NCBI GenBank assembly: GCA_017848125.1
Contig: JAGAJY010000256.1
Location: 1-39,932, forward strand
DNA length: 39,932 nt
Direction of reading: 5' to 3'
Source: Oscillospiraceae bacterium
GTDB lineage: Bacteria > Bacillota > Clostridia > Oscillospirales > Ruminococcaceae
The notes below the pieces were generated by a model. It was not told the origin of the DNA. It made no database searches and was given only the letters and a program-made list of their open reading frames with translations. This document shows, one piece after another, positions 3,283-32,700 of the stretch (position 1 is its first letter; each line of letters starts with the position of its first letter). Position numbers and translations under genes: made by a program.

Positions 3283-3419
3283 TCTACAACTACTTCCAGC
3301 CTGCACCCGTTCCACGGGCAAGGGGCGATGATGTTTTTACGGCGGTTTTTGATGCCGATACCAACAGAAAGGAAAGGTCTGCGAATTGCAGATCGACACG
3401 AGAAAACTCAAAAAGCTGA
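3279..3419 (+). CDS. 46-aa small protein between PcfB and VirD4
   Basis: A GTG start overlapping the preceding TGA (GTGA) opens a 46-codon frame beginning MIYNYFQPAPVPRARGDD and ending 34 bp inside the VirD4 gene. The first 30 residues look protein-like and aromatic/proline-rich; the last part is the out-of-frame start of VirD4. It fills the only gap between PcfB-like and VirD4-like genes, and translation through it would couple the two. No family is recognised. Confidence 0.5.
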   Translation: MIYNYFQPAPVPRARGDDVFTAVFDADTNRKERSANCRSTRENSKS

Positions 3420-4820: not shown

Positions 4821-5565
4821 GTGTGACACGTTCCGTACTGAAAAGGTGCGGCACGTAACAATAAAATAGTTACGTAGAACTATTATTCTGATGAATCGAA
4901 TGAGGGAGTAACGTCCTGAAAGGTTCACGTTAAAACTACGGACGGCTATGCAGTGTGAAATGCAGAGGTCGTAAGCCCGTGGAAGTCGTGCGAGAGCAGT
5001 CCTAACGGAGAAAGCAATTTCAGATGAGGAAAGCGCCGCAGAGGTGCGGTGTACTGCCTATAGTGCGGACGGCGGTGCAATATGGTTAGAATGACTTGAA
5101 ATACAGTCCGACAAAAATCCGAGTGTACGGTTCTAAACGAATGACCGATAGAAATGTCGGGGTGCAAAATGCACGCAGGCGGGGTGGAGTAAAAGTTGTT
5201 AGTATGAAACTCCCTGTGCTGTTACAGGCGGCACGTATCCTGAGAATATCGAGGATAATGCTTGCAGGACTAAAGGATTGACCTAAGTTGTACCAATGCT
5301 AAGAATAATGGAACGTGGAAAGCAGTCCAGTCAGTGAAATTCACATTTCTATACTGATGTTCAGACGAAAGCGGAGCAATCCGTATAAGCTGATTCAGGA
5401 CTGTGAGAGTAGTGCCACAGTACCAATGAAACGGTGATAATAAGCCGTGGAGGGATAGGCACAAGTCATTTTCAGAATATTCAATATGTATATGTAGTAA
5501 TCACAAAGTGATTTCATAGCTTCGGGTATGAGAAAGAAAAAACACGCTGAAAGGCGGTGGTTACT

Positions 5566-7449: not shown

Positions 7450-7513
7450 GCTACAAAATCAAATTACAGTAACAGGGCTACATATGCACCAAAAATATTC
7501 TGAAAATGATGGA

Positions 7514-7547
7514 ACGCCGTGTGACGGGAAACTGTCACGCACGGTGT
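7514..7547 (+). ncRNA. Group II intron domain V
   Basis: A 34-nt hairpin has a CGC catalytic triad near its 5' side, a two-base bulge on the 3' strand and a GAAA tetraloop (7528-7531). Length, bulge and loop match group II domain V, the catalytic core. A domain VI-like stem (about 7574-7593, GTGAT/ATCAC) follows, and the intron ends three bases after it. Confidence 0.85.
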
Positions 7548-7596
7548 GGAGTGGGGGAAAATCTGGTGATTATATCAAAGGATTACCTATCACTAT

Positions 7597-8231
7597 TTGG
7601 CGAAATACCGCAGTTTGAGAAGCTCATTGCGACTATCCGAAGCCGTGAAATCAGCGCGTCGATCATCTTGCAAGCTAAGAGCCAGCTAAAGGCTATCTAT
7701 AAAGATAATGCAGATACGATTGAGGGCAACTGTGATACGATGCTGTTTTTGGGCGGTAAGGAGAAGTCCACGCTGAAAGAGATCTCAGAGAGCTTGGGTA
7801 AAGAAACGATCGACAGTTTCAATACCTCCACCAATCGTGGACAATCGGAAAGCTACGGTATGAACTATCAGAAGCTCGGCAAAGAGCTGAAAAGTCAGGA
7901 CGAACTGGCGGTCATGGACGGCGGTAAATGTATCTTACAAGTGCGAGGAGTGCGTCCGTTCTTCTCGGACAAGTTTGACATTACCCGTCATAAGCAATAT
8001 CCAATGCTCTTGGACGATAATCCTGAGATGGGGTTCAACATCGAAAAATATGTGAGTGACCAAAAGGCGATGCGTTTGAGACTGTCTCGACAGGAGAAGT
8101 TCACGGGGTATGGTGTTGATATGACGGCCGCCGGACAGGAAGTTACAACAGTATCAGCAACAGAAACAGAAACCGCTGATACTCCAAATTCTGAGGAAAC
8201 CGACGAAAAAGAGATATATGTCGGATTTTAA
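7597..8231 (+). CDS. virD4: VirD4-like type IV coupling protein, 3' exon
   Basis: This exon resumes the VirD4 frame two bases into a codon and continues with GEIPQFEKLIATIRSRE, the conserved stretch after Walker B, then 'SIILQAKSQLKAIYKDNADTI' and 'NCDTMLFLGG', typical of VirD4/TraG C-terminal halves. It ends with an acidic tail and TAA at 8229-8231. A spurious frame opening at 7506 inside the intron could be mistaken for a separate truncated gene; no ribosome-binding site or independent function supports that. Confidence 0.9.
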
Positions 8232-8871: not shown

Positions 8872-9441
8872 ATGGGAATAAACATCGGTTATCTGACAGC
8901 TAACCGAACAAGTGCAGGAGATGAGGTCTACACACCATTTTATGCGGTAGAACCGTTACTGGAGTTTCTTCCGAAAGACAAGAAGATATGGTGTCCGTTC
9001 GATGAGGAATGGAGCGCTTTCTATCAGTTTCTTTCGGAGAAAGGCTATGAAGTGGAGCGAAGCAGCTTAAAGGAGGGACAGGACTTTTTCAGGTATGAAC
9101 CCGAACATTGGGACATTCTTGTGTCCAATCCCCCATTCAGCAAAAAGAATGATGTACTGAAACGAGCATTTTCTTTCCAAAAGCCCTTCGCTCTGCTCCT
9201 GCCCGTGAACAGTATTCAAGGCAAGGCGAGATATAAGATTTTCAACAACGAAATCCAGATGCTCTCCTTTGACGGGCGTGTGGACTATCATACACGGCAG
9301 AACATGGAATGTTACACTAAGGGCAATCACTTCGGCTCTGCTTATTTCTGCCGTGATCTCCTCCCCACAAAACTTGAATTACGGCAGCTTGTCAAATATG
9401 ACAGACCTTTAGTCACTCCCACGATTGGAGGTGATGAATAA
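8872..9441 (+). CDS. Small NPPF-motif methyltransferase-like protein
   Basis: The product is 189 aa. It has 'DEVYTPFYAVEPLLEFLP' near the N-terminus and the motif SNPPFSKKNDVL with NPPF at about 86-89, the catalytic signature of N6-adenine (or other amino) methyltransferases. The glycine-rich S-adenosylmethionine motif is replaced by 'KIWCPFDEEWSAFYQFL', so the family is divergent and short; activity cannot be assumed. Similar proteins are regular members of Clostridia ICE transfer operons. The start at 8872 has a weak ribosome-binding site and overlaps an 8-codon frame at 8855, so coupling is possible. Its stop overlaps the next ATG (TAATG). Confidence 0.7.
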   Translation: MGINIGYLTANRTSAGDEVYTPFYAVEPLLEFLPKDKKIWCPFDEEWSAFYQFLSEKGYEVERSSLKEGQDFFRYEPEHWDILVSNPPFSKKNDVLKRAFSFQKPFALLLPVNSIQGKARYKIFNNEIQMLSFDGRVDYHTRQNMECYTKGNHFGSAYFCRDLLPTKLELRQLVKYDRPLVTPTIGGDE

Positions 9442-10382
9442 TGGGAATTATCAGCGATGCGATCGATGCACTGGAAGATTGGTGTAAGGACTTATTTAAG
9501 GACGGCATCCAGTCTCAGTTTGACGGCATTTCCGACCTCCTGACCGACACTTTCTCGCAAACAACGGGAACAGGCGGCAGCGGTGGACTTGTCAATGACT
9601 TCGTAACTCAGCACCCGTCACAGTTCACTGGCGGAGGTACTGGCGGAACTACGATCTGGACAACGATCGAAACGCTTTGCAACAATGTCGTAGTGCCTAT
9701 CGGCGGTTTCATTCTGACAGTTATCCTGTTGAACGAACTGATACAGATGGTACTGCGAGGAAATAACTTCAAGGACTTTGATGATTCTATTTTTATAAAA
9801 TGGATCATAAAAGCACTTTGCGGTGTAATTTTGGTCGCCAACACCTATTACATCGCTTCGGCACTATTCTCGTTTGGCACAACGGTATGCTCCAACGGAC
9901 TTGCCACACTATTCGGGACCGGAGATTATCTATCTTCCACGCTCTCGATCAATCCGTCGGCTCTCAGCGGTCTGAGCTTGGGTGAGCTGATGACGGTGTG
10001 GTTTATTTCCCTGATCGTTCATCTTGGGGTGCTGATACTGATAGTTGCTATCGTTATCACACTTGCAAGCCGTATCATCGAGGTGTTTATGTATCTCAGC
10101 ATTGCACCGATTCCTATGGCGACCATGATGGACAGCGGTGAATGGGCTTCTATCGGTAAGAACTGGATCAAACAGCTTCTCGCTCTTTCTTTCCAGGGGT
10201 TCTTTATCGTAGTGGCACTCGGTATTTTCAAGACGCTTTTCAGCAATGCTATTGTCGCTCTGAACGCAAGTACAGACGGCGTGATCCTGCAAATGGGACT
10301 GCTTCTCGGCTATACCGCAGCACTTATCTTCACGATTCTCCGCACAGGAGCTATCAGCAAATCAGTGTTCAACGCTCACTGA
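9441..10382 (+). CDS. TrbL/VirB6-like mating-channel membrane protein
   Basis: The product is 313 aa. After a soluble N-terminus with a Gly/Thr-rich linker (about 40-72) it has five or six hydrophobic segments, beginning near residues 83-105 and ending near 285-305, including 'IAPIPMATMMDSGEW' between membrane segments. The build matches the TrbL/VirB6-like polytopic channel proteins of Gram-positive conjugation systems. It is translationally coupled to the methyltransferase-like gene upstream and followed by the PrgI-like gene. The channel role is by family and context. Confidence 0.8.
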   Translation: MGIISDAIDALEDWCKDLFKDGIQSQFDGISDLLTDTFSQTTGTGGSGGLVNDFVTQHPSQFTGGGTGGTTIWTTIETLCNNVVVPIGGFILTVILLNELIQMVLRGNNFKDFDDSIFIKWIIKALCGVILVANTYYIASALFSFGTTVCSNGLATLFGTGDYLSSTLSINPSALSGLSLGELMTVWFISLIVHLGVLILIVAIVITLASRIIEVFMYLSIAPIPMATMMDSGEWASIGKNWIKQLLALSFQGFFIVVALGIFKTLFSNAIVALNASTDGVILQMGLLLGYTAALIFTILRTGAISKSVFNAH

Positions 10383-10404
10383 GAACAAGATCGGAGGTTA
10401 TTAT

Positions 10405-10782
10405 TTGGCACATTATGTACCGATCCCAAAAGATTTGAACGACATCAAGGAAAAGTTCATCATGGGATTCACAAAGAGACAGGTAATATGCTTCGGTATC
10501 GGTCTTGTTCTTGGTGCGCCTGTGTATTTTCTCACAAGAGCGTCTATCGGAATGTCGGGGGCGATCTTCGCTATGGGTGCGGTCGCCGCACCTGCGATAC
10601 TCTGTGGCATTTACAAGAAAAACGGCGTGTTCTTGGAGAAACAGGTGAAGTTCATGCGTGAATATTTCACCCGACCGAGAAAGCGATATTACCAAACAAC
10701 CAATGTATTCAGGTGCATTGAACGGCACATCGAATACAACAGAATCAAGAAGAAGCTGAGAGATGCCGAAAGAAAAGGCTGA
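10405..10782 (+). CDS. PrgI family (VirB3-like) membrane protein
   Basis: The product is 125 aa from a TTG start at 10405 with CGGAGGTT upstream. It begins 'MAHYVPIPKDLNDIKEK', the usual opening of PrgI proteins, and has two membrane segments (about 26-45 and 50-70) followed by a basic cytosolic tail. PrgI/VirB3-like proteins anchor the VirB4 ATPase to the channel, and the VirB4 gene follows directly. The 67-bp gap after this gene holds a TATAAT at 10797-10802 without a clear -35 box. Confidence 0.85.
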   Translation: MAHYVPIPKDLNDIKEKFIMGFTKRQVICFGIGLVLGAPVYFLTRASIGMSGAIFAMGAVAAPAILCGIYKKNGVFLEKQVKFMREYFTRPRKRYYQTTNVFRCIERHIEYNRIKKKLRDAERKG

Positions 10783-10849
10783 TACGGCTCTCTATATATA
10801 ATAGTATAACTTTCGGTGTCTCCGCTTTGGAATATAAACGGAGGTCACA

Positions 10850-13294
10850 ATGGGCTTTAGAAAGAGAAATGCCAAAAGAAGTGATAACCGCAGCTCGGCT
10901 AAGGTTATCATGGGCAAGCCTGCCTCTCAGTTATCAAAAGAGGAGAAAAAGATTCTCTCCGCAAGAATGGCGGAGATCAGGAGTGAAAACGGCGGTAAAT
11001 CGACTGTGCAGAACACGATACCGTTTCTGTGTATGTATCAGGACGGCGTGTGCCAGGTGTCGGAGAATTTCTTTTCTCTGACGGTGCAGTTTTACGATGC
11101 CAACTACTCCATTGCAGAGTTTGATGAGCAGAACAATATCTTTTCCAAGTATTGCGATGTGATCAATCTCTTTGACAACACAATTCGTTTTCAGCTTACC
11201 TTTGAAAATCAGAACCGTTCAAAGGCAAAGCTCGTCAAAACGGTGCAGATACCCGAACAGGACGATGATTTCAACTCTATCCGCAAGGAATACAGCGAAA
11301 TGCTCACCGACAAGCTCCTGAAAGGCAGCAACGGACAGAGTGCAAGAAAGTTCCTGACATTCGGTATCGAATCCACATCATACAAGGCAGCAAGGGCAAA
11401 GCTCATGTCGATCAAGAATGATGTTATCAAGGGATTTAAGGCTTTCGGTGTCGAAGCGGAACTGCTTGACGGCAGGCAGAGACTTGAAGCTCTGTATTAT
11501 GCCCTGAATCCTTACAGAAATTCCCCATTTCTTTTCGATTGGGGCGAAATGCTGAGGGCAGGAATGGACACAAAGGACTTCATCTGTCCGCCCTCGCTCA
11601 AATTCAATAAGGCAGACTTTGAGATCGGCAATGCCTACGGTGCTGTGTGGGGTATGAATATCCTTGCCGGAGAGCTGCCCGATGAGATACTCAAGGACTT
11701 CCTTGAAATGCAGAATCTTTTCTGCGTGAACATTCATGTAGAACCGCTGGACCAGATAGATGCCCTGAAATTCGTCAAAAAGAAGCTCACAAATGTTGAG
11801 CAGATGAAGATCGACGAACAGAAAAAGGCATCGCAGTCCGGCTATGATCCCGACATTCTGCCACCTGCGATCAAGATGTATATCGAGGACATTGAAAAGC
11901 TCCTCGGTGATCTGAACAGCAAGAATGAGCGACTGTTCCATATCAGCATTTCGCTGAGGGCATACGCAAAATCGAAGAAAGACCTGAAACTTCTTTCTGA
12001 GATGCTGAAAAGAACGTGCCAGAAGAACAACTGCACGATGTTCCCTTACGATTACAGGCAGGAGCAGACGCTCGTTTCCACACTTCCGCTGTGCTATAAC
12101 GAGATTCCCGTCCGCCGTGAGATGCACACCAGCGGTATCGCTATCTTCGTACCGTTTACCACAAAAGAGCTGTTTCAGGACGGACAAGCTACCTACTACG
12201 GCATCAATACGCTGTCGCGCAACATGATCCGTGCCAACAGGTCAAGGCTCAAAAACCCGAACGGACTTATCCTCGGTACGCCAGGTGCAGGCAAGAGTTT
12301 CAGCGTTAAGCGTGAGATCCTCGACTGCTTTCTGACAACCGTGGACGATATTATCATCTGCGATCCCGAAGGTGAGTATTTTCCGCTTGTTTCGGCACTC
12401 CACGGACAGCTTATCCGTATCGCCAGCAACTCGGAACAGCACATCAACCCTATGGACATCACCATTGATGACTATATGTTCAGCAATCCTATGGAAGTCA
12501 TTGCGAACAAGTCTGACTTCCTGATCTCCCTGTGTGAGATCATTGTCGGCGGCCGCTACGGACTTTCTGCGGAGGAACGCTCGGTCATTGATAAGTGTGT
12601 TCAGCGTATCTACAAGCACTTCATTGAGAATGAACCGTCTGAGGACAAGATGCCACTTCTCTCTGATTTGCAGAGAGAGCTTCATGAGGAGGGCGAAGTC
12701 GCTCTGAGAGTGGCAAACTCTTTGGAGATGTTCGTAAACGGCAGCCAGAACCTCTTTAATCATCGCACCAATATTGATATGAGCAATCGTATCATCTGCT
12801 TTGATATTAAGGAGCTTGGCAACCAGCTCAAAAAGGTCGGTATGCTCATCGTGCAGGATACCGTGTGGAACAGGGTTTCCGCCAACCGTGAGAAAAAGAA
12901 GATCACTCGCTACTATATCGACGAGTTCCATTTGCTTCTCAAGGAGGAACAGACAGCGAAGTATTCCGCTGAGATCTGGAAGCGTTTCCGTAAATGGGGC
13001 GGCGTTCCGACGGGTATCACACAGAATGTCAAGGACTTGCTTTCTTCTCAGGAGGTCGAGAACATCTTTGATAACTCGGATTTCGTGTATATGCTCAATC
13101 AGGCAGCCGGAGACAGAGACATTCTCGCTGAAAAGCTCCATATCTCAAAGGAGCAGATGAAGTATGTCACGAACAGCGGTCCGGGCGAAGGGCTTATCCG
13201 CTACGATAAGGTCTTGCTGCCGTTTACGGACAAGTTCCCGACGGATACAGAGATGTATCGCCTTATGACCACGAAGCCAACCGAAAGTGCGTAA
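10850..13294 (+). CDS. virB4: VirB4-like conjugation ATPase
   Basis: The product is 814 aa with ATG behind GGAGGT. The N-terminal half is the VirB4 family region; the C-terminal half is a RecA-like ATPase with Walker A GTPGAGKS (about 477-484), the 'IICDPEGEYFPLV' strand and Walker B YYIDEFH (about 688-694), then the 'GGVPTGITQNVKDLL' segment typical of VirB4/TraC. VirB4 powers assembly of the mating channel and pilus at the inner face of the membrane. Length and motifs match intact members. It lies 68 bp behind PrgI and 21 bp ahead of the CD1108-like gene. Confidence 0.95.
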   Translation: MGFRKRNAKRSDNRSSAKVIMGKPASQLSKEEKKILSARMAEIRSENGGKSTVQNTIPFLCMYQDGVCQVSENFFSLTVQFYDANYSIAEFDEQNNIFSKYCDVINLFDNTIRFQLTFENQNRSKAKLVKTVQIPEQDDDFNSIRKEYSEMLTDKLLKGSNGQSARKFLTFGIESTSYKAARAKLMSIKNDVIKGFKAFGVEAELLDGRQRLEALYYALNPYRNSPFLFDWGEMLRAGMDTKDFICPPSLKFNKADFEIGNAYGAVWGMNILAGELPDEILKDFLEMQNLFCVNIHVEPLDQIDALKFVKKKLTNVEQMKIDEQKKASQSGYDPDILPPAIKMYIEDIEKLLGDLNSKNERLFHISISLRAYAKSKKDLKLLSEMLKRTCQKNNCTMFPYDYRQEQTLVSTLPLCYNEIPVRREMHTSGIAIFVPFTTKELFQDGQATYYGINTLSRNMIRANRSRLKNPNGLILGTPGAGKSFSVKREILDCFLTTVDDIIICDPEGEYFPLVSALHGQLIRIASNSEQHINPMDITIDDYMFSNPMEVIANKSDFLISLCEIIVGGRYGLSAEERSVIDKCVQRIYKHFIENEPSEDKMPLLSDLQRELHEEGEVALRVANSLEMFVNGSQNLFNHRTNIDMSNRIICFDIKELGNQLKKVGMLIVQDTVWNRVSANREKKKITRYYIDEFHLLLKEEQTAKYSAEIWKRFRKWGGVPTGITQNVKDLLSSQEVENIFDNSDFVYMLNQAAGDRDILAEKLHISKEQMKYVTNSGPGEGLIRYDKVLLPFTDKFPTDTEMYRLMTTKPTESA

Positions 13295-17719: not shown

Positions 17720-18904
17720 ATGAAGGTACTCAGCTTATTTGACGGTATCTCCTGCGGTATGCTTGCTTTACAGAGGGCAGGCATACCCGTGGAGTGCTAT
17801 GATGCGTTTGAGATCGACAAGTATGCCGTCACAGTCTCAAAGCGCAATTTCCCCGTAATCGTTCATCACGGGAATGTTTATGACGGCGACTTTACGCAGT
17901 TTCGGGGATATGACCTTCTGCTCGGCGGTTCGCCCTGCACCTATTGGTCTATCGCCAAAAAGGATAGAGAGGTTGACTGCAACGGTGAGGGATTCAGGCT
18001 CTTTAAGGAGTATGTGAGAGCGCTTCACGAAAGTGGGTGCAGATACTTTTTATATGAGAATAACTACTCCGTTCATCAGAACATCAAGGATGAGATCAGC
18101 AAAACACTCGGTGTTGAGCCTATCATGATCAACTCGGCACTTGTATCGGCTCAGAACCGTAAACGCTGCTATTGGACGAATATTCCGTTTACTTCTTTTC
18201 CTGCGGACAAGGGTATCCTGCTGAAAGATGTGCTTGAAAGCGGTGTCGCTTGGCAGGACAAGTCCTATTGTATGACCGCTTCCTATGACGGTGCGGTGCT
18301 GTATAACACTTTGGAGCGCAAGCAGCGGACAATGGTCGCAGAGCCTATCCCGATCAATACATATCAGGGTACGGACAAGTCCCGAACTGTCATGGCAGGC
18401 TATCACAAGTATGGTGAAGCAACTCTTATCAAAAACTCAGGTTTTAACGGCGGAACAACTGCGGTCGCTATGCCTGTGGGTGCCGCCCAGCGTGGCAGAT
18501 ACGTTGACGGCGAAAAGACCGAACAGCATATTGAAATCCGTGAGGACGGTAAATCCAACTGCCTGACAACCGTGCAGAAAGATAGCCTTGTATGCACTCC
18601 CGTTCGTGTCGGTCATTACGGCAAGGGCGGACAGGGACAGCGAATTTACTCCGTGGTCGGCAAGTCCGTTACACTTTCTGCCAACGGCGGCGGTCAGGGT
18701 GCTAAGACAGGGCTGTATAAGATAGACCTTCCCGATGGTGACTATATTATCCGCAAGCTCACTCCCATTGAAGCGGAGCGTTTGCAGACTCTCCCTGACA
18801 ACTATACCGCAGGCATTTCCAATACCCAGCGATACAAGTGTATCGGCAACGGTTGGACGGTAGATGTGATCGCCCACATCCTGGGAGGGCTTCACAATGA
18901 TTGA
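17720..18904 (+). CDS. Cytosine-5 DNA methyltransferase
   Basis: The product is 394 aa. Motif I FDGISCG (7-13), the catalytic Pro-Cys in GGSPC (69-73), ENN (113-115, in place of the usual ENV), QNRKR (145-149) and the C-terminal motifs 'LTPIEAERLQTLPDNYT' and 'YKCIGNGWTVDV' are all present in order. The enzyme transfers a methyl group from S-adenosylmethionine to carbon 5 of cytosine; the target site cannot be read from sequence. No restriction endonuclease is adjacent, so it probably acts as a solitary methylase, for example as protection during transfer. It overlaps the following PP-loop gene by 8 bp. The ribosome-binding site is weak. Confidence 0.93.
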   Translation: MKVLSLFDGISCGMLALQRAGIPVECYDAFEIDKYAVTVSKRNFPVIVHHGNVYDGDFTQFRGYDLLLGGSPCTYWSIAKKDREVDCNGEGFRLFKEYVRALHESGCRYFLYENNYSVHQNIKDEISKTLGVEPIMINSALVSAQNRKRCYWTNIPFTSFPADKGILLKDVLESGVAWQDKSYCMTASYDGAVLYNTLERKQRTMVAEPIPINTYQGTDKSRTVMAGYHKYGEATLIKNSGFNGGTTAVAMPVGAAQRGRYVDGEKTEQHIEIREDGKSNCLTTVQKDSLVCTPVRVGHYGKGGQGQRIYSVVGKSVTLSANGGGQGAKTGLYKIDLPDGDYIIRKLTPIEAERLQTLPDNYTAGISNTQRYKCIGNGWTVDVIAHILGGLHND

Positions 18905-20036
18905 TGAAGCTCTGAACAAGTGTGCCGATAACAATAACTACACCATTTACACCAGTATGTGCAAGGCACAGCGTATCCTGATGCGGTTTTATGATGCTGT
19001 GTGCAGTATCAGCGGCGGCTCGGACAGTGATATTGTCCTTGACCTGATACACAAGGTCGATGAGGACGGCAAGGTCAAGTATTTCTGGATAGACACGGGG
19101 CTTGAATACTCCGCTACAAAGGAGCATTTGGACTTCCTTGAACAGAAATACGGTATCACCATTGAGCGTGTCAAGCCCGATAAGCCTATCCCGACTTGCG
19201 TTAAGGAGTATGGTGTTCCTTTCCTGTCGAAATATGTTTCCGAACAGATGATGCGTTTGCAGGCACATCACTTCCAGTGGGAGGACGAGCCTTTGGAAGT
19301 CCTCTTGCAGAAATACCCTCGGTGCAAAACGGCTCTGCAATGGTGGTGCGGTGAACGATACTCCGACAAGGACGGTATCCAGAAGATAAGCCGTTTTTCG
19401 ATCTATCGCAACCGTTTCCTCAAAGAGTTCATCATGGCAAATCCGCCGGATTTCCCCATTTCCAATAAGTGTTGCGAGTATTCAAAAAAGAAACCAGCAA
19501 AGCGTATCGTCAAGGAACATGATGCTGACCTTGACATTACGGGTATCAGGCAGTCCGAGGGTGGTATCCGTTCGGCAGCGTATAAGACTTGCTTTTCCGA
19601 GTGCAAGTCTAAGGGTTGCAATACCTTCCGTCCTGTGTTTTGGTACACGGACGGTGACAAGCGTGACTATGAGGAAATGTTCGGCGTGACGCACTCTCGT
19701 TGCTATACCGAATACGGACTGCGGAGAACGGGCTGTGTCGGGTGTCCTTTCAGCAAGCATATCACCGAGGAGCTTGCGATCATCGAGGAACATGAGCCGA
19801 ATCTGTATAAGGCGGCTGTCCATATTTTCGGGAAGTCATACGAATATACGGCAAAATACCGTGCTTTTGTCAAGGAAATGAAAGCGAAAGAGAAAGAGGA
19901 GAAGAAACGTGATAGACTACGCAGCCTTAATGGAACATCTGCCTGTGATACTGGTGGTGACAGCGGTGCTTGCTCTCCTGATCGGAGTGCCGTATCTGCT
20001 GACAACAATGCTCCTGAGATCACAGAAGGAGCGTGA
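18897..20036 (+). CDS. PAPS-reductase-like PP-loop protein with cysteine clusters
   Basis: The product is 379 aa. The PP-loop SGGSDSD (39-45), 'YFWIDTGLEY' (62-71) and 'ITGIRQSEGGIRSAAYK' (214-230) mark the phosphoadenosine phosphosulfate reductase / DndC-like ATP-pyrophosphatase fold. Cysteines at about 192-193, 232, 236, 241, 269 and a CxxC at 280-283 suggest an iron-sulfur or zinc site. Members in phages and mobile elements have uncertain roles; DndC relatives put sulfur into DNA. It overlaps the methyltransferase gene. The last 40 residues are low-complexity and overlap a separate membrane-protein frame at 19909, so the functional domain probably ends near residue 340. Sulfate assimilation is unlikely in this context. 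Confidence 0.8.
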   Translation: MIDEALNKCADNNNYTIYTSMCKAQRILMRFYDAVCSISGGSDSDIVLDLIHKVDEDGKVKYFWIDTGLEYSATKEHLDFLEQKYGITIERVKPDKPIPTCVKEYGVPFLSKYVSEQMMRLQAHHFQWEDEPLEVLLQKYPRCKTALQWWCGERYSDKDGIQKISRFSIYRNRFLKEFIMANPPDFPISNKCCEYSKKKPAKRIVKEHDADLDITGIRQSEGGIRSAAYKTCFSECKSKGCNTFRPVFWYTDGDKRDYEEMFGVTHSRCYTEYGLRRTGCVGCPFSKHITEELAIIEEHEPNLYKAAVHIFGKSYEYTAKYRAFVKEMKAKEKEEKKRDRLRSLNGTSACDTGGDSGACSPDRSAVSADNNAPEITEGA

Positions 20037-20055
20037 CAGCGATGTTCGATCCTGA
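19909..20055 (+). CDS. 48-aa single-pass membrane protein overlapping the PP-loop gene
   Basis: A GTG at 19909, well placed behind AGAGGAG, opens a 48-codon frame: MIDYAALMEH, then one strongly hydrophobic segment (residues about 11-36), then a basic tail RSQKERDSD. It overlaps the 3' end of the PP-loop gene by 128 bp in another frame and the FN3 gene start by 14 bp. The clean membrane helix with a positive inner flank, and the good ribosome-binding site, argue that it is a real gene. It is one of several tiny membrane proteins in this element. Confidence 0.6.
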   Translation: MIDYAALMEHLPVILVVTAVLALLIGVPYLLTTMLLRSQKERDSDVRS

Positions 20056-20893
20056 ATTTCAGCGAAAAGCCCTGAGCCTTGTAATGGGCTTTATCATGCA
20101 GTTTTCAGAAACTCCGGCAGAACCCGAAGTGCAGGAGCTTACTATCAATGACCTGAATGTTTCGACTATCTCTGTTTCCTGCCTGAAAGTGGCTTGGGAC
20201 GGTGAGCCTGACCGTGATTATTATGTGAGCTGCACGGCTCATGACGATAGCTATGCCTACGGCGATAATATGTACTTTGCATTCAAAGGCAATGAACTTT
20301 GCTACATAACAGGTCTGCGTGAGGGTACGGAGTACACGGTGACGGTCGAGCCTATTCTTTCAGATGATGAAAAGGACGGCTATACCGCAGTTTCCGCAAG
20401 TGCTGACGGCAAGACGGAAACGGTAGAGGTCATTTATGAGTTCCCCTATGAGGACGGTTGGACAAACTGTTTTGCAGGAGAACGAGCTTCGGGCTTGACG
20501 GCAATGCCAAGCTCAGGAGCAATATATGGCTCAAAGGTCGATACCATAACAGGCACGGGCATTCGCCGTGATGATTATGGTGATTACTGCTGTGCTATGG
20601 GCGTATGGTATGGCTACTGCAATGACAGGTTTTTGATCGAGCTTGAGAATGGCACTCAGTTCACTACGAAAATCTGCGACAGCAAAGGCTATGCCGACGA
20701 TGGCGAGGGCAAGTATCACAACTTCGGTGGCAGCGGTAAATGTATCGTGGAGTTTATCTACGATGATTATAACTTACCGTCCTGCGTAGCTTTCTCAGGC
20801 TCTTGGGGTTATTACAACTGGAACGGTCTTGACCTCGGAGCAAACATCAAATCAATCAAGAAGATCAACTACGGCGATCCCGTAGTGTACTAA
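20042..20893 (+). CDS. Fibronectin type III domain protein
   Basis: The product is 283 aa from ATG 20042; a GTG at 20033 sits too close to AAGGAG (20025-20030). After an N-terminal helix it has a fibronectin type III domain (about 32-120) with 'ISVSCLKVAWDG', 'YYVSCTAHDD' and 'ITGLREGTEYTVTV'. The C-terminal part (about 135-283) is rich in Gly, Tyr and Asp with paired cysteines and looks like a beta-sandwich or barrel ('CIVEFIYDDYNLPSCVAFSGSW'). No convincing signal peptide is present, so its location is unclear. FN3 domains mediate protein or carbohydrate binding. Confidence 0.75.
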   Translation: MFDPEFQRKALSLVMGFIMQFSETPAEPEVQELTINDLNVSTISVSCLKVAWDGEPDRDYYVSCTAHDDSYAYGDNMYFAFKGNELCYITGLREGTEYTVTVEPILSDDEKDGYTAVSASADGKTETVEVIYEFPYEDGWTNCFAGERASGLTAMPSSGAIYGSKVDTITGTGIRRDDYGDYCCAMGVWYGYCNDRFLIELENGTQFTTKICDSKGYADDGEGKYHNFGGSGKCIVEFIYDDYNLPSCVAFSGSWGYYNWNGLDLGANIKSIKKINYGDPVVY

Positions 20894-20908: not shown

Positions 20909-21427
20909 ATGAATGTAAAGAAGATCATCAAGGGTATCGTGGGACTCAGTGCTGTGGCAGGCATTGCATATCTTTCCTATAAGTTCGGTGAGAGCAACGG
21001 CGAGGTCAACGAGCGCTTCCGTGAGAAGTACGGCGACGATGAGGACGACATTGAGCTTGACGATGATGAGGACGAGTTCAGGTTCTACGATAACATGGAC
21101 GAGCCTGACGATGAGTGCCTTGCGCCTAAGAAGGAGTATATGCCTTCTTTTACGGTGAGTATGCACAATTTCGCACCACTTGATTCCGTTAAGGTTGACG
21201 GCATTTCGGACAGGGATATGGATATGCTTATTTACCATATCTCCCTCGACAAGTACACCTCTAACAAGCAGATCCGTGAGTGGCTCAAAGTCGATAAGGA
21301 GACTGCGGCAAAGGTGATCGCTGCTCTCAGAGAAGCGGAATATATCGGAGAGGAATATCCTAACTACATCATTCCGGTGCATATCACAACAGAGGTGTAT
21401 TTCAGGCTCAGAGGTGAACTGCGATGA
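20909..21427 (+). CDS. Membrane-anchored acidic protein with C-terminal winged helix
   Basis: The product is 172 aa from ATG 20909, behind GGAGGT. It has an N-terminal membrane helix (about 4-25), a highly acidic stretch (DDEDDIELDDDEDEF), the motif FRFYDNMDE, and a C-terminal winged-helix-like domain ('LDKYTSNKQIREWLKVDKET', 'IAALREAEYIGEEYPNYIIPVHIT'). The acidic motif is close to one in the tail of the CD1107-like protein. It could tether DNA or a transfer complex at the membrane. Its stop overlaps the ATG of topoisomerase III (ATGA). Confidence 0.75.
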   Translation: MNVKKIIKGIVGLSAVAGIAYLSYKFGESNGEVNERFREKYGDDEDDIELDDDEDEFRFYDNMDEPDDECLAPKKEYMPSFTVSMHNFAPLDSVKVDGISDRDMDMLIYHISLDKYTSNKQIREWLKVDKETAAKVIAALREAEYIGEEYPNYIIPVHITTEVYFRLRGELR

Positions 21428-23448
21428 GTATCCTTATCGTAGGTGAAAAGCCGAGCGTTTCAAGAGCCATATCTGCCGTGGTCGGTGCTTCGTCCACAAA
21501 GAAAGGCTACACCGAAGGAAACGGTTATATTGTTTCTTGGTGTGTCGGTCACTTGGTCGGACTGAAATATCCGAATGACTACGGCAATGGCTGGGACCAG
21601 AAGTGGAGCTTTTCACAGCTCCCTATGATTCCCGAAAACTGGCAGTTTCAGGTTACGGACAGCACAAAGGCACAGTACAATCTCCTGAAAAGCCTTATGA
21701 ATAAGGACGATGTGTCGGAGATCATCTGTGCGACCGATGCCGACCGTGAGGGCGAGTGTATTTTCCGCTATGTGTATAACATGGCGAACTGCAAAAAGCC
21801 CGTCAAGCGCCTGTGGGTTTCTTCTCTTGAGGAGTCGGCTATCCGCAAGGCACTCACAACGATGAAGCCCATGTCTGCTTATAACAACCTGTTCAATGCA
21901 GGCTATGCCAGGGCGAGGGCTGACTGGCTTGTGGGAATGAACGGCTCTCGGCTGTTTTCCGTTCGTTACGGCGGTAAGCTCAACATTGGCAGAGTGCAGA
22001 CACCGACGCTCGCAATGATCGTTCAGCGTGATTCGGAGGTCAATGGGTTTATCAAGCAGAAGTATTACACGGCAGACCTCAACTGCGGTGAGTTTATTCT
22101 TTCTTCTGCAAGAATTGACGATGAGAATGCCGCTGATACACTTGTTTCTGCCTGTGACGGCAGTACGGTTACGATCAGCTCAATCAAACGTGAGGTCAAG
22201 ACCGACAAAGCACCGAAGCTGTATGACCTGACCACGCTCCAAAGAGAAGCAAACAAGGCTTTCGGCTATACGGCACAGCAGACGCTCGACTACACGCAGT
22301 CGCTCTATGAGGGCAAGCTCGTCACTTATCCCCGTACCGACAGCCAGTATCTCAGTGATGATATGGCGCAGACGGCTCTCGATTTGGCAAAGCTCTGTGA
22401 TACTTATTTCGGGTTTGGTATCTCACATACTCCCGATATTACTAAGGTCATCAACAACAGCAAGGTTTCAGGGCATCATGCAATTATCCCCACAAGCGGT
22501 ATCGCTACGGCTGACCTTTCTTCTCTGCCGTCGGGTGAAAAGAATGTGCTTACGTTGATTGCCACAAAGCTGACCTGTGCAACGGCTCCGGCGCACAAGT
22601 ATGAAGCTGTCAAGCTGACAGGTATCTGCAAAGGTACGGAGTTCACGGCAACGGGCCGCACGGTGCTTGAAATGGGTTGGAAAGCCTATGCAAAGCAGTC
22701 CGACAAGAAGAATGAGGAAAAGTCTCTGCCTGCGGTATCTGAGGGACAGACATTCACGGCAGCAGCAAGCAAGGGCGAACACTTCACTTCTCCTCCGAAG
22801 CCGTATACCGAGGACACACTTCTCTCCGCTATGGAGAGAGCCGGAAATGAGGACTACGACGAGGACATCGAAAAGAAGGGACTCGGCACTCCTGCCACAA
22901 GAGCTGCGACTATCGAAGCACTTGTAAAGAATGGCTATATGGAGCGTGTCGGCAAACAGCTCAGGGCAACGGATAAGGGCAAGGAGCTTGTGACTGTTGT
23001 TCCCGATGAAGTGAAGTCCGCAAAGTTGACCGCAGAATGGGAGTCCAAGCTCCAGCAGATCGAACACGGCAGCCTGCCCGAAGCGGTCTTTATGTCGGGT
23101 ATTCAACAGTTTATCACTGAGATGTGCAGTAAATACGGCTCTGTGGATAAGTCTGTTTCTCTTTCTGACGGCGGTAATGAGCCTGTCGGCAAATGCCCGA
23201 AGTGCGGTGCTGAGGTGGTCAAGGGTAAATTCGGTTACTACTGCAAGGGCAAGTGCGGTATGAATATCGCAAAGGTGTACGGCGTGGAGCTTTCCGATAC
23301 CCAGGTCAAGGGACTTCTTGACGGCAAGTCCACAAGCTACACATCTAAGGGCAAAAAGACGATCGTCCGCCCTGAGATCGTGGAGAATCCGTATAACGGC
23401 AAGATGTACTATCAGTGGAAAACAGAAAGGGGTAACAAGAATGGATAA
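21424..23448 (+). CDS. topB: DNA topoisomerase III
   Basis: The product is 674 aa, the usual length for mobile-element topoisomerase III. The Toprim domain has 'ILIVGEKPSVSRAI' and ATDADREGE (about 105-112); the topoisomerase core has 'NIGRVQTPTLAMIVQRD' and the active-site tyrosine at about 302 in LVTYPRTDSQYL; the C-terminus carries a zinc-ribbon-like CPKCG...C...KC (about 590-612). It is a type IA enzyme that relaxes or decatenates DNA by single-strand passage, probably needed during ICE replication or transfer. It overlaps genes on both sides. Confidence 0.95.
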   Translation: MSILIVGEKPSVSRAISAVVGASSTKKGYTEGNGYIVSWCVGHLVGLKYPNDYGNGWDQKWSFSQLPMIPENWQFQVTDSTKAQYNLLKSLMNKDDVSEIICATDADREGECIFRYVYNMANCKKPVKRLWVSSLEESAIRKALTTMKPMSAYNNLFNAGYARARADWLVGMNGSRLFSVRYGGKLNIGRVQTPTLAMIVQRDSEVNGFIKQKYYTADLNCGEFILSSARIDDENAADTLVSACDGSTVTISSIKREVKTDKAPKLYDLTTLQREANKAFGYTAQQTLDYTQSLYEGKLVTYPRTDSQYLSDDMAQTALDLAKLCDTYFGFGISHTPDITKVINNSKVSGHHAIIPTSGIATADLSSLPSGEKNVLTLIATKLTCATAPAHKYEAVKLTGICKGTEFTATGRTVLEMGWKAYAKQSDKKNEEKSLPAVSEGQTFTAAASKGEHFTSPPKPYTEDTLLSAMERAGNEDYDEDIEKKGLGTPATRAATIEALVKNGYMERVGKQLRATDKGKELVTVVPDEVKSAKLTAEWESKLQQIEHGSLPEAVFMSGIQQFITEMCSKYGSVDKSVSLSDGGNEPVGKCPKCGAEVVKGKFGYYCKGKCGMNIAKVYGVELSDTQVKGLLDGKSTSYTSKGKKTIVRPEIVENPYNGKMYYQWKTERGNKNG

Positions 23449-26785: not shown

Positions 26786-29700
26786 ATGAGAATTACTGAC
26801 GAACAGAAAGAAAGGGCGGCATTTGTCAATCTTCCTCAGTTCCTCATGGCTCACGGCTTTGACCTGAAAAAAGTCGGCAGAGAGTATGTGTGGAAGAATC
26901 ACGATAGCCTGCACATCAAGGATAACGGTCCAGGTGAGCGTGGTGCGTGGTTTCGTTTCAGCGAGGACAAGGGCGGCGATAACATCGGATTCCTGCGTGA
27001 ATACATGGGAATGTCCTTTGTTGATGCGGTCGAAGCCCTCACAGGCGAACACATTGACCGCATCTATACTCCGTCCCGCACATACGAACAGAAGCCGAAA
27101 ACAGTAACGGCAAGGGAGCTTTCCCTTGCCGAAGCTGACAATGCAAGGCGTGTGTTTGCGTACCTGTGCAAGACCAGAGGGCTTGACTATGACCTTGTGG
27201 CTTCACTTGTGAGACAGGGCGTGATCGCTCAGGAAGAAAAGACAGGAAATGTCCTTTTCAAATACTATGACGATCAGGGCAAGATCATCGGTGCTGAAAA
27301 GGTCGGCACATCAACAGAATACAAATTCAAAGGAATTGCAACAGGCTCGGCAGCAGGACACGGCTTTGAAGTAGTCCGTGGCACGGGCGAAAAGGCTTTT
27401 TTCTTTGAGTCGGCTATTGATATGCTCTCCTATCTGCAAATGCACGATAAAGAGCTAACCGATTGCAGGCTCGTTTCCATGATGGGCGTGAAGCCGAATA
27501 TCGTGCTTGATACAATGCTCAGGCACAATATCTCTCCTGAGAATGTATTTTTATGCTCCGACAATGATACCGCAGGCAATGATTTTGCCCAGCGTTTGCA
27601 GGAGCAGTATCCCGACATGAAGCGTGTTATCACTCCCGATACATATAAAGACTGGAATGATATGCTTCGTGGTATCCCAAAAGCAGTAGAACATGAGACT
27701 GAGAAAAAGGAGGTTGACAGCGTGGCTGACCTTATTACATTCGGCAACAGAATGTGGAATGATGCGACTGATAACAGAGACAAGTCGCTGATTTCTATGC
27801 AGCTTGCAGACTTTCAGCGTGTGCGAGACACACTTGAAAGATCGGGTATCAATTACTATGCCTATGAAATGAACGGTACTGTTCGTATGGCGGTAAATGA
27901 TAAGGACACCGACTGGCTGAGAAATATCCTCGGCAATGTGAGCATTACAAAATCCAACAGACCTTACTCTCCGCCCGAAAAAAACATCTTCGGAAGTGCG
28001 GAGTATCGTTATATCCCGCAGAAGGAGTACCTCTCCGCTGACCGTGACCTTGTGCTGAAAATAGCTGAGATCATGAAAGCCCGTGGTATGCAGTTTTCGG
28101 GCAGAGTCTATCCGTCCGGCAAGGGTACGCTGACGGTTAGTCACGCTGATCTCTTTGCAGTCCGCAACATCAGGGACGAGGTTGTGAATATGCGTAAGCA
28201 GTTTGCAAGTCCCGATAAGGCGCAGGAAGTCGGCAACCGTGACTATCGAGCGAACCGTGATACCCATTATTATATGAGCAAACTCACGCCTGAACAGTTC
28301 GGAGAGGTCAAGCCTTTCCTTGAAACAAGTGTGAGCTATCACGCTGTTGTTCGTGACGGCAAGGTAGCTTTTGCGGTCGATAAGGAAAATGCTCCTGCAT
28401 TTCATAGAGCATTGGAGAACGCTGTCCGTGAGGTCGGTATGCTCCGCAATATGACAGACCTCGGTCTGCCAATGGAACAGATGGTAGCATTATCTCCCGT
28501 TGTTCATCGTCTTGCCGTTGAGGATATGAAGCTGAATCTTGCTGACTTTTTTGACCGCAGATATGATGAAGCTCAGTTCGGTGAAATGCTCTCACTTGTC
28601 AATGCGTATATCGCTCAGGCTCCGGCTGAAAGATATGGCGAAAACTCCAAACTGAATGATATGCTTGAAGCAAAGTCAAGTTTTGACCGCAGTATCGAGC
28701 TTTCGGACTTCTTTTCTCAGCACGATTTCTCCGATGAGCAGAGGGCGGCTATTACCGCAATGTTTGTCGGTGATGTTACAAGAGGACAGATCGACAGCAT
28801 TGACGAAACTTTCACGGCTGAGGATATTCAGGCGTATGACGAAATTCTGCATAATGCTTTGCAGGAGTCCGATGTTGCTGATTTCCTGACTGCCCATAAG
28901 CAGGCTGTTATCGACAGAGAGAACGCAAGCAGAGTGCCGACAGAGGAAGAAGTTTTATTCTCCCAGGCTGACCTTGCAAAGTTCATTGCGGAGCGTACAC
29001 TGTCCAGCGATGAGTGGGAGGACATGGCTTACCCTCTGTTTGACAGCGGTTATCTTGATAAGCATAAGCCCAACGACAAGGCTGCTTTCGGCTATCATCT
29101 TTCTGAGCCTGCACTCTATGACCTTGCCCAGCGTTATCATGACGGTGAGGATATTCGCCGTGAGCTTGCCCTCGGCCTGTTAGAGGGCAGCGGGGCCACA
29201 GATATTGAGTTTATCTTTGAACAGGGCGAGATCTCAGACCGCACCTATTATTATGCTGAAAACCTCCGTCACTCCCTGCATACGGAGAGGACTGAGGACG
29301 GCTTTATGTGCAGTTTCGGCGGTATGGAGCGTTTTGTTTCCTTTGAGGAGATCGGGCAGGCTTTCATTGACCGCACCCATGAGGAGTTCAATGACCTCGC
29401 TTTCTGGTGGGTTCGTGATGATATTCAGGCGGCTGTACCCGATATTGAAGATACAAAAATCGCTGACCTGCTTAACGCTTTTGGCGGCGCAGCTATGGCA
29501 GATTGGGAGAAAGGCGACAATAAGCCGAAGCTCAACCGTATCAAAAAGGCTCTCTATGGTATTCTTGGTGATGAAGCTCAGACCGAACAGGTATTTGCTA
29601 TCATCGCAAAGGAAAAGTATCATGTAACTTTTGAGCCTGAAAGCTCTATCCACTTCGGTCTGTTAGGAAATGGTATTACGGCTTATGATGTATCCCGTAC

Positions 29701-32700
29701 TGATCCCGAAACTCACGATTATCCTACTGTTGCTCATATTTCCGAGGAGGGCGTTGTATCTATTTATGACGATACTCTCTCGGAGAAAGATATGCAGCGT
29801 ATTCAGGAACAGGCGCAGTCTGCCCGAAAGCAGTTTTTTGAGAGATGGAACAGGCTGTCAACAGAAGAACAGTATTATCAACTGCTTAACAATGCCGATA
29901 TGACTACTTCTGTGAATATCACCAGAGATCATCTTCCGATGGAAAAAGCAATCGAAAAGTATATGCCGTTTGTTTTCTTCAAGGAGGGCGAACGTCCTGA
30001 ACCTGAGCAGAAAGGAACTTTTCAGATTTATCAGCTCCCCGGCGGTGACAAGTATCACGGTATCCGCTTTGAGGGTATGGAACAGCTCAAAAATGACGGT
30101 GTTCAGCTCAACAAGGACGATTATGAGCTTGTCTATGAGGGCGAAGTCGGAGAGTTCAGGGGCAATGCTACTCTTGAAGCTCTCTTTGCTCAGTTCAATA
30201 CCAATCACCCCGAAGATTTCAGAGGTCATTCTCTTTCAGTTTCCGATGTTATCGTCATTTCCGTTGACGGCAAGGATACAGCGTATTTCTGTGACAGCTT
30301 CGGCTTTACCAAAATGCCTGAGTTCTTCCGTGAAAAGGAGCTTGTGCAGGAAAAGCCCGAAACTGCAAAGGTGTCCGATCTTGCAGTCGGTGATATTATC
30401 ATGTATGACGGCGCTCACCGTGAGGTCGAGAAGATCAGCGACAAGAGCATTTCCCTGAAAGACCTTGACGCACCCGACTACGGCGGTATCCTTCTCGGTA
30501 CTTCCGATGTTCTTGCGTATGACGGCTGGCAGCAGGATATGGAGGAAAAGGGCTTTGAGATCATCAGCAAGGGCGGACAGCAGGCTGAAAAGGCTGAACC
30601 CGAAGATAAAGGTCCGGTATCGCTCCGCAAGGTCGGTGACTTCTACGAGATGCACGGCAAAAATGCGGAGATCGGTGCGGAAGTCCTCGGACTGCGTATG
30701 CTCTCCAAAAATGGGCAGCCTATGGTCGGTTTTCCGGCTCATGTCAAGGACGAATACTCCGACAAGCTGAGAGAAGCTGGATATACTGTCCTGATTGAAC
30801 AGGCATTTGAGCTGAACCCTCCGAAGCGTGAAGCTGAGAAGCTCCAGACATTACAGCAGGTCGTTGACAAGTTCTTCGGGACTGACTGCGAATCTGCCGA
30901 AACGGAGCGTGGCACATGGAAACTGGCAATCGCTGACGGCGATAAGGTCGGTGAACTGTTCTATGACGGCGATCCCGTCTGCGGTATCTATAACCGTGGC
31001 GATAAAATGGAGATTGAGCCTTACCGTGAGATGACCACTTTCCCCGCACTCCTGCGTACTGCGATGCTTGAGCATAACCCCGACAAGCCCGTGGAGATCA
31101 TGGATTTTCAGCATACTTTCGAGACTCCGCTTGATAAGGCAAAGTTCCTTATCAACGATTTTTGCGAAGCAGAGTACCGTGAGGGTGCTGATTTCTCCGA
31201 TCTGCACAATGTCGGTCTTGCGTTTACCACTCTGACCGATGATGAGCTGCCCATTCAGGTGACGGCTGACCTTGTGGATTTCAAGTTCACTCACGAATTT
31301 GACGGCGAGGTATTCGATACAGAGCAATTTGACAGTATCGAGGATATGATCGAGAACGGTCTGACTGACTTGGACTTCTCTGACCTTGTATCCGTTCCCG
31401 ATGAGGTTATCGACAGGCACACTGGCAAGGACGAACAGACGGTTGACCTTATGAGTGATGCCGCCGATGTTTCTGATACTTCTTCTCCTGCGGAAGATGT
31501 GCCGTCTATTACGCTGAAATACAAGGGTGATGCCGAGAGCCTTGACGAGATCAAGGATAAGGCACTTTCCCTCGGAGCTACTGTTATCATTGATAATGCC
31601 GAGGGCGTTATCTCTATCGACACCTATGAAAACCATCATGCTGAGATCGACGGAGCCGCCTATGAGCTTGGTCTAATGGCAGTCGATGATGCTCCAACGG
31701 TTTCAGAGGATATTGACAAGCCCCTGTTCACCGATGATGCTGTTATTGAGGAAATTCAGCGGAGTCAGAACGATGATATTCCGTTTTGGGAGAAGCCCGA
31801 TATTCAGGGCGAACAGCTTTCTTTGTTTGGCGATCCCGAACCGCTGACATCTTCAAAGCCAGCAAAAGAAAAGCCTAAGTCCGAGTTTGCAAAAGGTCCG
31901 GTGGTGGACGGTGTTCAGGTCTATGAAGCACTTGCCGCCGAGATCGACCGTGGAACTGGCTTTGTTCACGGCAAGCTCCGTGTGCAGGACTTCTACGAAG
32001 AAAAGCACCCGACTATCCAGCAGCTTGCCGATTTCTTGAAAAAGGAGTATGGCACAGGCGGACACAGCGGTGAGGGCAAGATCTCACTCGTTGACTATAA
32101 TTCTCAGGGTATCACATTCAGCTTTGAGAACGGCGAAAAATTCCGTCATTCGTGGTACAATGTCGCAACAATGACCGAATCACGGCTCAGGGACGATACC
32201 TACCTTTCTGCTGAACAGAAAGCTGAGAGGGCCGCACTCAAAGCGGAAAAGGCTGAGGAGCAGAGCCACAAGATCGTGGAAGTCGGTGACCGATTTCGTC
32301 ACAAGATTACTGGCGAGGTTTCTGAGGTTATTTCGCTGACGGGCGCACTCCCGTTCTATTCGGACGATTGCACCATTCAGCGTGAAAGCAGCGGTTTCGC
32401 TGTGACGGAGAATATCTCCTATGATAAGCTCCTTTACAGCGGTCTGTATGAGTATATCGGCAGGGCTGAACCCGAAAAGGAAAAGTCTGAACCTGTGAAG
32501 CCTGAGCCTGTAAAGGCTGAGGTCAAACCGGATAATCCTGCTGTCGCGCATGAAACGGAAAAGACTGATATTCCTACGGTCAAGAACCTATCTCAGCTCA
32601 AAAAGTCATTGAAGCCAGGAATGATATTTGAGATCAGCGATCATCTCCGTCCTGAATGTATCGGAGAGCGCAGAATCGTCACGGGTGTAAGCACCGTTGA

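Follow-up and report, generated by a model that had tools for sequence, protein, structure and literature searches.

An overlapping C5 methyltransferase and PP-loop gene pair in a putative integrative conjugative element of an Oscillospiraceae bacterium, and its possible role in marking DNA

The contig JAGAJY010000256.1 of an Oscillospiraceae bacterium (assembly GCA_017848125.1), 39,932 nucleotides analysed at full length and called the window here (contig C219 of genome G000), looks by its gene content like an integrative conjugative element (ICE). It raises the question of why a gene for a C5-cytosine DNA methyltransferase (MTase) overlaps a gene for a PP-loop protein of the PAPS (3'-phosphoadenosine 5'-phosphosulfate) reductase fold. 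The pair probably helps the element to disguise its DNA on entering a new cell, as suggested by the conservation of the pair and by the occurrence of PP-loop relatives in sulfur-based DNA-defence clusters. The reading preferred here, to which we give slightly less than an even chance, is that the two genes write two stacked anti-restriction marks, 5-methylcytosine and a DNA sulfur mark fed by a host cysteine desulfurase. The kind of the methyl mark is nearly certain, while the sulfur mark is suggested by the genomic partners of the family, its cysteines and its PP motif. A role in DNA modification or anti-restriction during transfer had been proposed in a first-pass annotation of this DNA, and the analysis supports it.

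The MTase is placed among the C5-cytosine DNA methyltransferases by both family models and catalytic motifs: it matches PF00145 with 110.9 bits (cut-off 22; E 1.2e-31) and TIGR00675 with 102.7 bits (cut-off 100.65), and it carries GSPC (from residue 70), ENN (113), QNRKR (145) and GN (376). The usual motif VI of C5 methyltransferases is ENV. The enzyme aligns with M.HhaI over its last ~110 residues, recognition domain included (phmmer, domain i-Evalue 7.3e-16), and GCGC is therefore the best guess for one target. This domain is conserved in most of the ICE kin; compared with M.HhaI, it retains Q-x-x-R, T-L-S and GGG and has Asn for Tyr at one position of the recognition domain. Upstream of it, short units resembling target recognition domains (TRDs) vary in number and kind among sibling ICEs, so that the variable stretch is probably a row of tandem TRDs, for which tandem recognition domains in Bacillus phage MTases are a known parallel (PMC8936443). 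The enzyme thus looks like a multi-target anti-restriction MTase with targets predicted from its sequence. Two related loci carry an additional C5 MTase, different from the first and with the motif ENV, after the first MTase and in front of the PP-loop gene (7106-8008 in L099, 7040-8008 in L100); L099 keeps the 8-bp overlap.

The scarcity of candidate sites was compared between the window, nine ICE-kin loci (L092-L109, L196) and 15 other contigs of the same genome. GCGC stands at 0.51, 0.35 and 0.74 in these three sets and ACGT at 0.22, 0.33 and 0.71; their greater scarcity in the ICEs fits restriction and methylation-driven loss equally. CTAG, CGCG, GGCC and CCGG are strongly scarce in the window and the nine loci and about equally so in the 15 other contigs, and because this scarcity is common to other contigs of the genome, site avoidance was rejected as proof of MTase specificity.

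The PP-loop protein matches PF01507 (PAPS_reduct) with 61.4 bits (E 1.4e-16). The first-pass annotation had read a PP-loop, WIDTGLEY and at least eight cysteines in it, all of which are present; the full count is 16 cysteines, and five of them (C192, C193, C232, C280 and C283) are invariant in 72/72 aligned relatives. The spaced arrangement of a CC pair and a CxxC, recovered by regular expression in 68 of the 72 relatives with a spacing of 83-89 in 65 of these 68, follows the 4Fe-4S pattern of APS (adenosine 5'-phosphosulfate) reductases and would be expected to hold such a cluster. The ECGLH-type catalytic motif occurs in the last 120 residues of none of the relatives (0/72); ECGLH or ECGMH is present in all five APS reductases fetched. 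In PADLOC, the protein matches SspD (5.3e-11) and BrxP (1.4e-12), with best stretches of only 72 and 79 N-terminal residues, and its best phage match in PHROGs is phrog_424, filed as an auxiliary metabolic PAPS reductase. The DndC model TIGR03183 is absent from its NCBIfam matches and has no match at E<=0.001 in the genome of the window. As judged by these comparisons, the protein is neither a canonical PAPS reductase nor a canonical DndC. Its predicted structure reaches a pLDDT of 90.7, and among the matches listed, the nearest are APS reductases, with the [4Fe-4S] thiolases NcsA and TtuA lower down. A structural comparison with DndC, PAPS reductase and TtuA/TilS had been suggested earlier; TtuA did appear, and no DndC or SspD structure was found among the 50 matches listed, an absence that excludes nothing. 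Both genes are under purifying selection in a test of nine loci in which dS is near saturation in the distant pairs, with a dN/dS of 0.03-0.06 in eight of nine comparisons (undefined in one) for the PP-loop gene and 0.05-0.08 for the MTase.

The pair is constant within one lineage of ICEs. The open reading frame (ORF) of the PP-loop protein starts inside the final 8 bp of a complete MTase, as first annotated and as the ORFs, coordinates and family matches bear out. A C5 MTase lies upstream on the same strand in 20/20 loci (L092-L111); the overlap is exactly 8 or 11 bp in 14 of the 20 and 35-140 bp in another five, probably as a result of ORF calls that use an upstream start, and the remaining locus, L105, is broken, with a PP-loop ORF of 209 aa and a 652-bp gap to the MTase. 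In the PP-loop tree, which leaves out L105, treats the PP-loop rows of L093, L094 and L095 as identical and has the C5 tag of the window set by hand, the ICE clade has 21 rows (SH-aLRT 100), 20 of them with a C5 neighbour; this tag includes matches weaker than the subfamily of the window MTase itself. The row without the tag is L112, in which a C5-like gene of another sort lies 1.8 kb downstream. The MTase and PP-loop distances correlate across 14 of the loci L092-L111 (r 0.85, Mantel p 0.0005), and the same pair is found in MT835730.1, an unannotated human-faeces scaffold from a phage collection. The loci are not all independent, as L098/L002, L112/L003 and L104/G168:C51 are apparently the same contigs. 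The nearest PP-loop kin loci are mostly from Ruminococcus, among them R. albus AR67 (L099) and R. flavefaciens FD-1 (L096), and the host of the window is therefore probably a Ruminococcus.

Outside this lineage, the two genes are mostly found apart. A C5 MTase stands directly before the PP-loop gene (-1) in 5/115 loci and directly after it (+1) in 5/117, which barely exceeds the 2-4% seen at offsets 2-4. MTases close to the window subfamily (138-368 bits) occur 0.2-5.6 kb from a PP-loop gene in L021, L036, L070, L075-L077 and L134. Among viral MTase loci, 10/79 have PP-loop kin within ~4 kb, one of them strong; the scripted count covered 79 of 80 loci, its L312 being the same contig as L070, and the 80th (L077) also has one. 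In a 148-genome family sample, the MTase query found 11 places after merging of split matches, of which five adjoin a PP-loop match, three are intact or near-intact without one (G138:C40, G000:C202, G153:C74) and three are fragments. The PP-loop query found five places at >=67% identity adjoining an MTase match, one broken fragment without an MTase (G168:C26) and four places at 39-43%. An MTase without a PP-loop gene is also seen in L194, in L195 and in L193, a second ICE-like contig of the window genome, where the related C5 MTase (9657-10916) sits among apparent conjugation genes. L194 is a sibling ICE that shares the flanking genes of the window, lacks the PP-loop gene and has an FN3-like counterpart directly 3' of the MTase. 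A joint function was accordingly rejected as a deduction from conservation of the pair, since the pair is constant in one ICE lineage only and L194 has the MTase alone.

The neighbourhoods of more distant relatives point to sulfur. Profile scans with the PP-loop family kept 80 of 330 viral loci and 80 of 171 genome loci (a viral-contig scan with the window protein as the lone query gave no confirmed relative), neighbours were counted in 121 deduplicated loci out of 140 outside the ICEs, and the Pfam tally covered 150 of the 163 neighbours, all but the 13 longest. A cysteine desulfurase stands at +1 in 4/117 and at -1 in 1/115 deduplicated loci, and elsewhere only in 1/93 at -4. It is the next gene in L125, L128 and L130, whose PP-loop proteins are about 50% identical to that of the window (49% in L125 and L130, 51% in L128). 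In L125 the order is DndF (2.9e-73, truncated at the start of the locus), DndG (3e-112), DndH (1856 bits), PP-loop protein, cysteine desulfurase; its genome has no DndD match at E<=1e-8. L130 reads PbeA (6e-205), PbeC/DndD-like (1.1e-73), a 177-aa protein with no PADLOC or NCBIfam match, PP-loop protein, DndA/SspA-like desulfurase (4.1e-151). Neither genome has a match to the DndC model at E<=0.001. The leaning towards DndC-like sulfur chemistry that had been suggested for the window protein thus gains from its kin, and the sulfur link is specific, resting on few loci.

The host genome holds four cysteine-desulfurase-like places. A complete Dnd system was sought there and rejected, only a DndD C-terminus, a DndE-like gene and a PbeA-like start being present and DndC being unmatched; these lie on L175 (contig C67, 1-3566), where the DndD C-terminus is at the contig edge and the PbeA-like start belongs to an ORF whose remainder is PbeC-like. 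A second weak DndD match (C216) looks SbcC-like by eye. Across the 148 genomes, the PbeA-type model TIGR04095 matches at E<=1e-60 in six genomes, none over the curated cut-off, and DndH is found in one; pressure to counterfeit a sulfur mark therefore exists in this family and is not common there.

In the proposed mechanism, the MTase would methylate several short palindromes, probably including GCGC, a step that is well supported in kind, and the DNA of the element would thereby survive type II restriction in the recipient. The PP-loop protein would use ATP to activate a group on DNA, for which a backbone phosphate, the group proposed for DndC, is the likeliest candidate, and would transfer sulfur by way of a 4Fe-4S cluster and its conserved cysteines, with a host cysteine desulfurase as the source. 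The outcome would be an imitation of the mark that phosphorothioation (PT)-linked systems (DndFGH, Pbe) read as self. The genes would travel together because both protect incoming DNA and not because one needs the other. Precedents exist: type-4 BREX has a PAPS-reductase-like PT component in place of a methyltransferase (PMC12839542), and DndDE-type cores occur with cytosine methylases that replace the PT genes (PMC10853773), which by analogy may be taken as a precedent for the swapping of methyl and sulfur marks.

Several points weigh against a sulfur mark. In profile comparisons with sets of five proteins each, the PP-loop protein resembles APS reductase (probability 97.6) more closely than DndC (73.8), and its predicted structure leans the same way. 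The described PT pathways use a DndD/DndE- or SspB/SspC-like partner (PMC12707154), and none was found in a Pfam scan of 14 window proteins, a subset of the window ORFs; the missing partner would mean a partner from the host, a family that needs none, or a different substrate. For the first option, the DndE-like and PbeA-like genes and the desulfurase-like places of the window genome may serve. Proximity to defence islands may mislead, because DndFGH has been argued to stand alone and act without modification genes (PMC10853773). The desulfurase link amounts to five deduplicated loci and the DndFGH and Pbe links to one each; the further neighbours in L128 are LmuA and LmuB of Lamassu and not Dnd genes, and 82 of the 140 tree rows (phage, genome and ICE) lack all four neighbour tags within a distance of two genes. 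The sibling ICE L194 does without the PP-loop gene, and a distant relative sits among phage head genes in L214. This last locus (Ruminococcus phage NatCom_23091) has PP-loop kin at 25% identity, annotated as a PAPS reductase, between the portal and head maturation protease genes.

Four other explanations were weighed. The overlap of the genes, their co-inheritance in one ICE lineage and the five viral or genome contexts with a close-subfamily MTase 0.2-5.6 kb away, listed above, would suit a joint sulfur-containing base modification, in which the cytosine would be selected and flipped by the MTase and given its sulfur by the PP-loop protein. Such a single combined modification had been raised in the first-pass annotation and is now very unlikely, chiefly because the sibling ICE L194 keeps the MTase without the PP-loop gene; the same is seen in L193 and L195, most PP-loop kin have no C5 neighbour, and the PP-loop gene stays while the recognition region of the MTase changes or another MTase joins. 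An enzyme acting on a small molecule, that is, an APS/PAPS-reductase-like "auxiliary metabolic" protein feeding sulfur metabolism, would agree with the APS-reductase fold, the 4Fe-4S pattern and the filing of phrog_424, and is quite unlikely: the reductase motif is missing throughout the relatives, SGGxDS is intact in all of them and absent in four of the five fetched APS reductases, those compared over the N-terminal part (the fifth being L211), and the scores fall far under the NCBIfam cut-offs (47.6 versus 154; 42.1 versus 235.3). It had been noted earlier that no sulfate-assimilation gene is near, which fits both the lack of one among the 14 scanned proteins and the lack of an APS-reductase match at E<=1e-40 in the genome.

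The protein might instead be an enzyme of the tRNA-thiolase type that modifies RNA or a host component by thiolation or adenylation, for takeover or superinfection control. This is rather unlikely, as the DndFGH and Pbe neighbours indicate DNA as the target and, KTI12 aside, no tRNA-linked family is found among the 25 commonest of 72 neighbour families. A defence or anti-superinfection factor that works by ATP or nucleotide chemistry with no DNA marking would be in keeping with the Lamassu genes beside L128 and with the kin that, at eight loci, form a constant trio of genes together with a GHKL ATPase and a Methyltransf_35-type gene; it is distinctly unlikely given the desulfurase links and 4Fe-4S cysteines, which point to sulfur transfer, and given that no GHKL ATPase is among the 14 scanned proteins.

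If the reading of two stacked marks is extended to the whole family, these PP-loop proteins (CC...CxxC, SGGxDS, no reductase motif) would form a further lineage of DNA-sulfur-modification enzymes that require only a cysteine desulfurase, take the place of DndC next to the restriction genes of DndFGH and Pbe systems, and were acquired by ICEs and phages to forge a "self" mark, in ICEs beside a multi-target MTase. This extension is doubtful and is offered tentatively. If sulfur marking is real, mobile elements would defeat PT-sensing restriction as they do type II restriction, by writing the mark themselves, and the naming of phrog_424 as an "auxiliary metabolic PAPS reductase" would come into question on specific grounds; if the family marks DNA, part of the auxiliary PAPS reductases listed in viromes would be DNA-marking enzymes. 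The question can be put to the test with the clusters of L125 and L130, in each of which the PP-loop gene belongs to a compact set linked to a desulfurase and the genome has no DndC match. Going by titles and abstract openings, no literature was found on this MTase/PP-loop pair, nor on sulfur-mark counter-defence by mobile elements.

The features of the window are collected below.

Table. Coordinates of the gene pair, its motifs and other features of the window.
Feature	Position	Strand	Basis or remark
C5-cytosine DNA methyltransferase, 394 aa	17720-18904	+	family models and catalytic motifs
Variable stretch, repeated short TRD-like units (QRTMVA / KSRTVMAG / SNCLTTV)	18263-18598	+	
Last target recognition domain, M.HhaI-like (GKGGQGQRIYS...TLSANGGG)	18599-18739	+	phmmer alignment with M.HhaI
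PP-loop / PAPS-reductase-fold protein, 379 aa	18897-20036	+	
PP motif SGGSDS	19011-19028	+	SGGxDS in 72/72 relatives
Invariant Cys192-Cys193	19470-19475	+	
Invariant Cys280-x-x-Cys283	19734-19745	+	
48-aa hydrophobic (membrane) ORF	19909-20055	+	overlaps 3' end of PP-loop gene in another frame
FN3-like protein, 286 aa	20033-20893	+	sub-threshold Pfam match
Coupling protein, two pieces	3386-4858 and 7506-8231		Pfam scan of window proteins
Reverse-transcriptase ORF between coupling-protein pieces	5557-7449		
TrbL/VirB6-like	9441-10382		
TraG-type ATPase	10850-13294		
ORF resembling topoisomerase III	21424-23448		judged by eye
3093-aa multidomain protein	26786-36067		
Large serine recombinase	36092-37645		

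A 48-aa membrane protein and an FN3 protein had been described as following the pair. Both ORFs are present, but the small one does not follow the PP-loop gene and instead overlaps its last 128 bp; of the 21 loci examined, 9 (the window, L092-L098 and L103) have an ORF of this sequence type at this place. The FN3 match reaches 17.5 bits versus a Pfam cut-off of 25 (E 0.0047), so "FN3-like" is the furthest label allowed. Further along the window, the coupling-protein gene (3386-8231) is split by an ORF with reverse-transcriptase and HNH parts, which is probably a group II intron, and the 3093-aa protein has Toprim, DUF3991, YodL, MutS_I and ResIII domains and a weak Eco57I-MTase match, a polyvalent protein of the kind known from conjugative elements.

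The three-gene set of the distant relatives consists of the PP-loop gene, an HSP90-like (GHKL) ATPase at +1, confined to this next-door position (8/117), and a third gene at +2, in 8 of the 121 deduplicated loci outside the ICEs (L114, L115, L116, L118, L119, L122, L126 and L127). The third gene is Methyltransf_35 in L126; in L119, PADLOC gives only a weak MzaB match for the ATPase and none for the third gene. The set is possibly an undescribed defence system.

Compared with known systems, the MTase shares with M.HhaI and the multi-target C5 MTases of Bacillus phages the C5 motifs, an HhaI-like last recognition domain and tandem short recognition-like units, but it has ENN in motif VI, and unlike the phage enzymes it sits in an ICE, with its targets predicted. 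The PP-loop protein shares with APS/PAPS reductase (CysH) the PAPS_reduct domain and the CC...CxxC 4Fe-4S pattern, whereas it has an intact PP motif without the C-terminal ECGLH-type motif and no sulfate-assimilation gene among the scanned window proteins. In contrast to DndC, SspD and BrxP systems, the scanned proteins include no DndDE or SspBC partner and no DUF4007, BrxC or PglZ, and the DndC model is unmatched; judged by eye, the CC pair of the window protein falls opposite a lone Cys in the five fetched DndCs, which hhalign places at C151 instead. With these three it has in common the PP-loop ATP-pyrophosphatase fold with SGGxDS, G-x-R-x-x-E and CxxC, of which SGGxDS and the CxxC of the second half align with the five DndCs, and its kin likewise adjoin a cysteine desulfurase and DndFGH or PbeA/PbeC.

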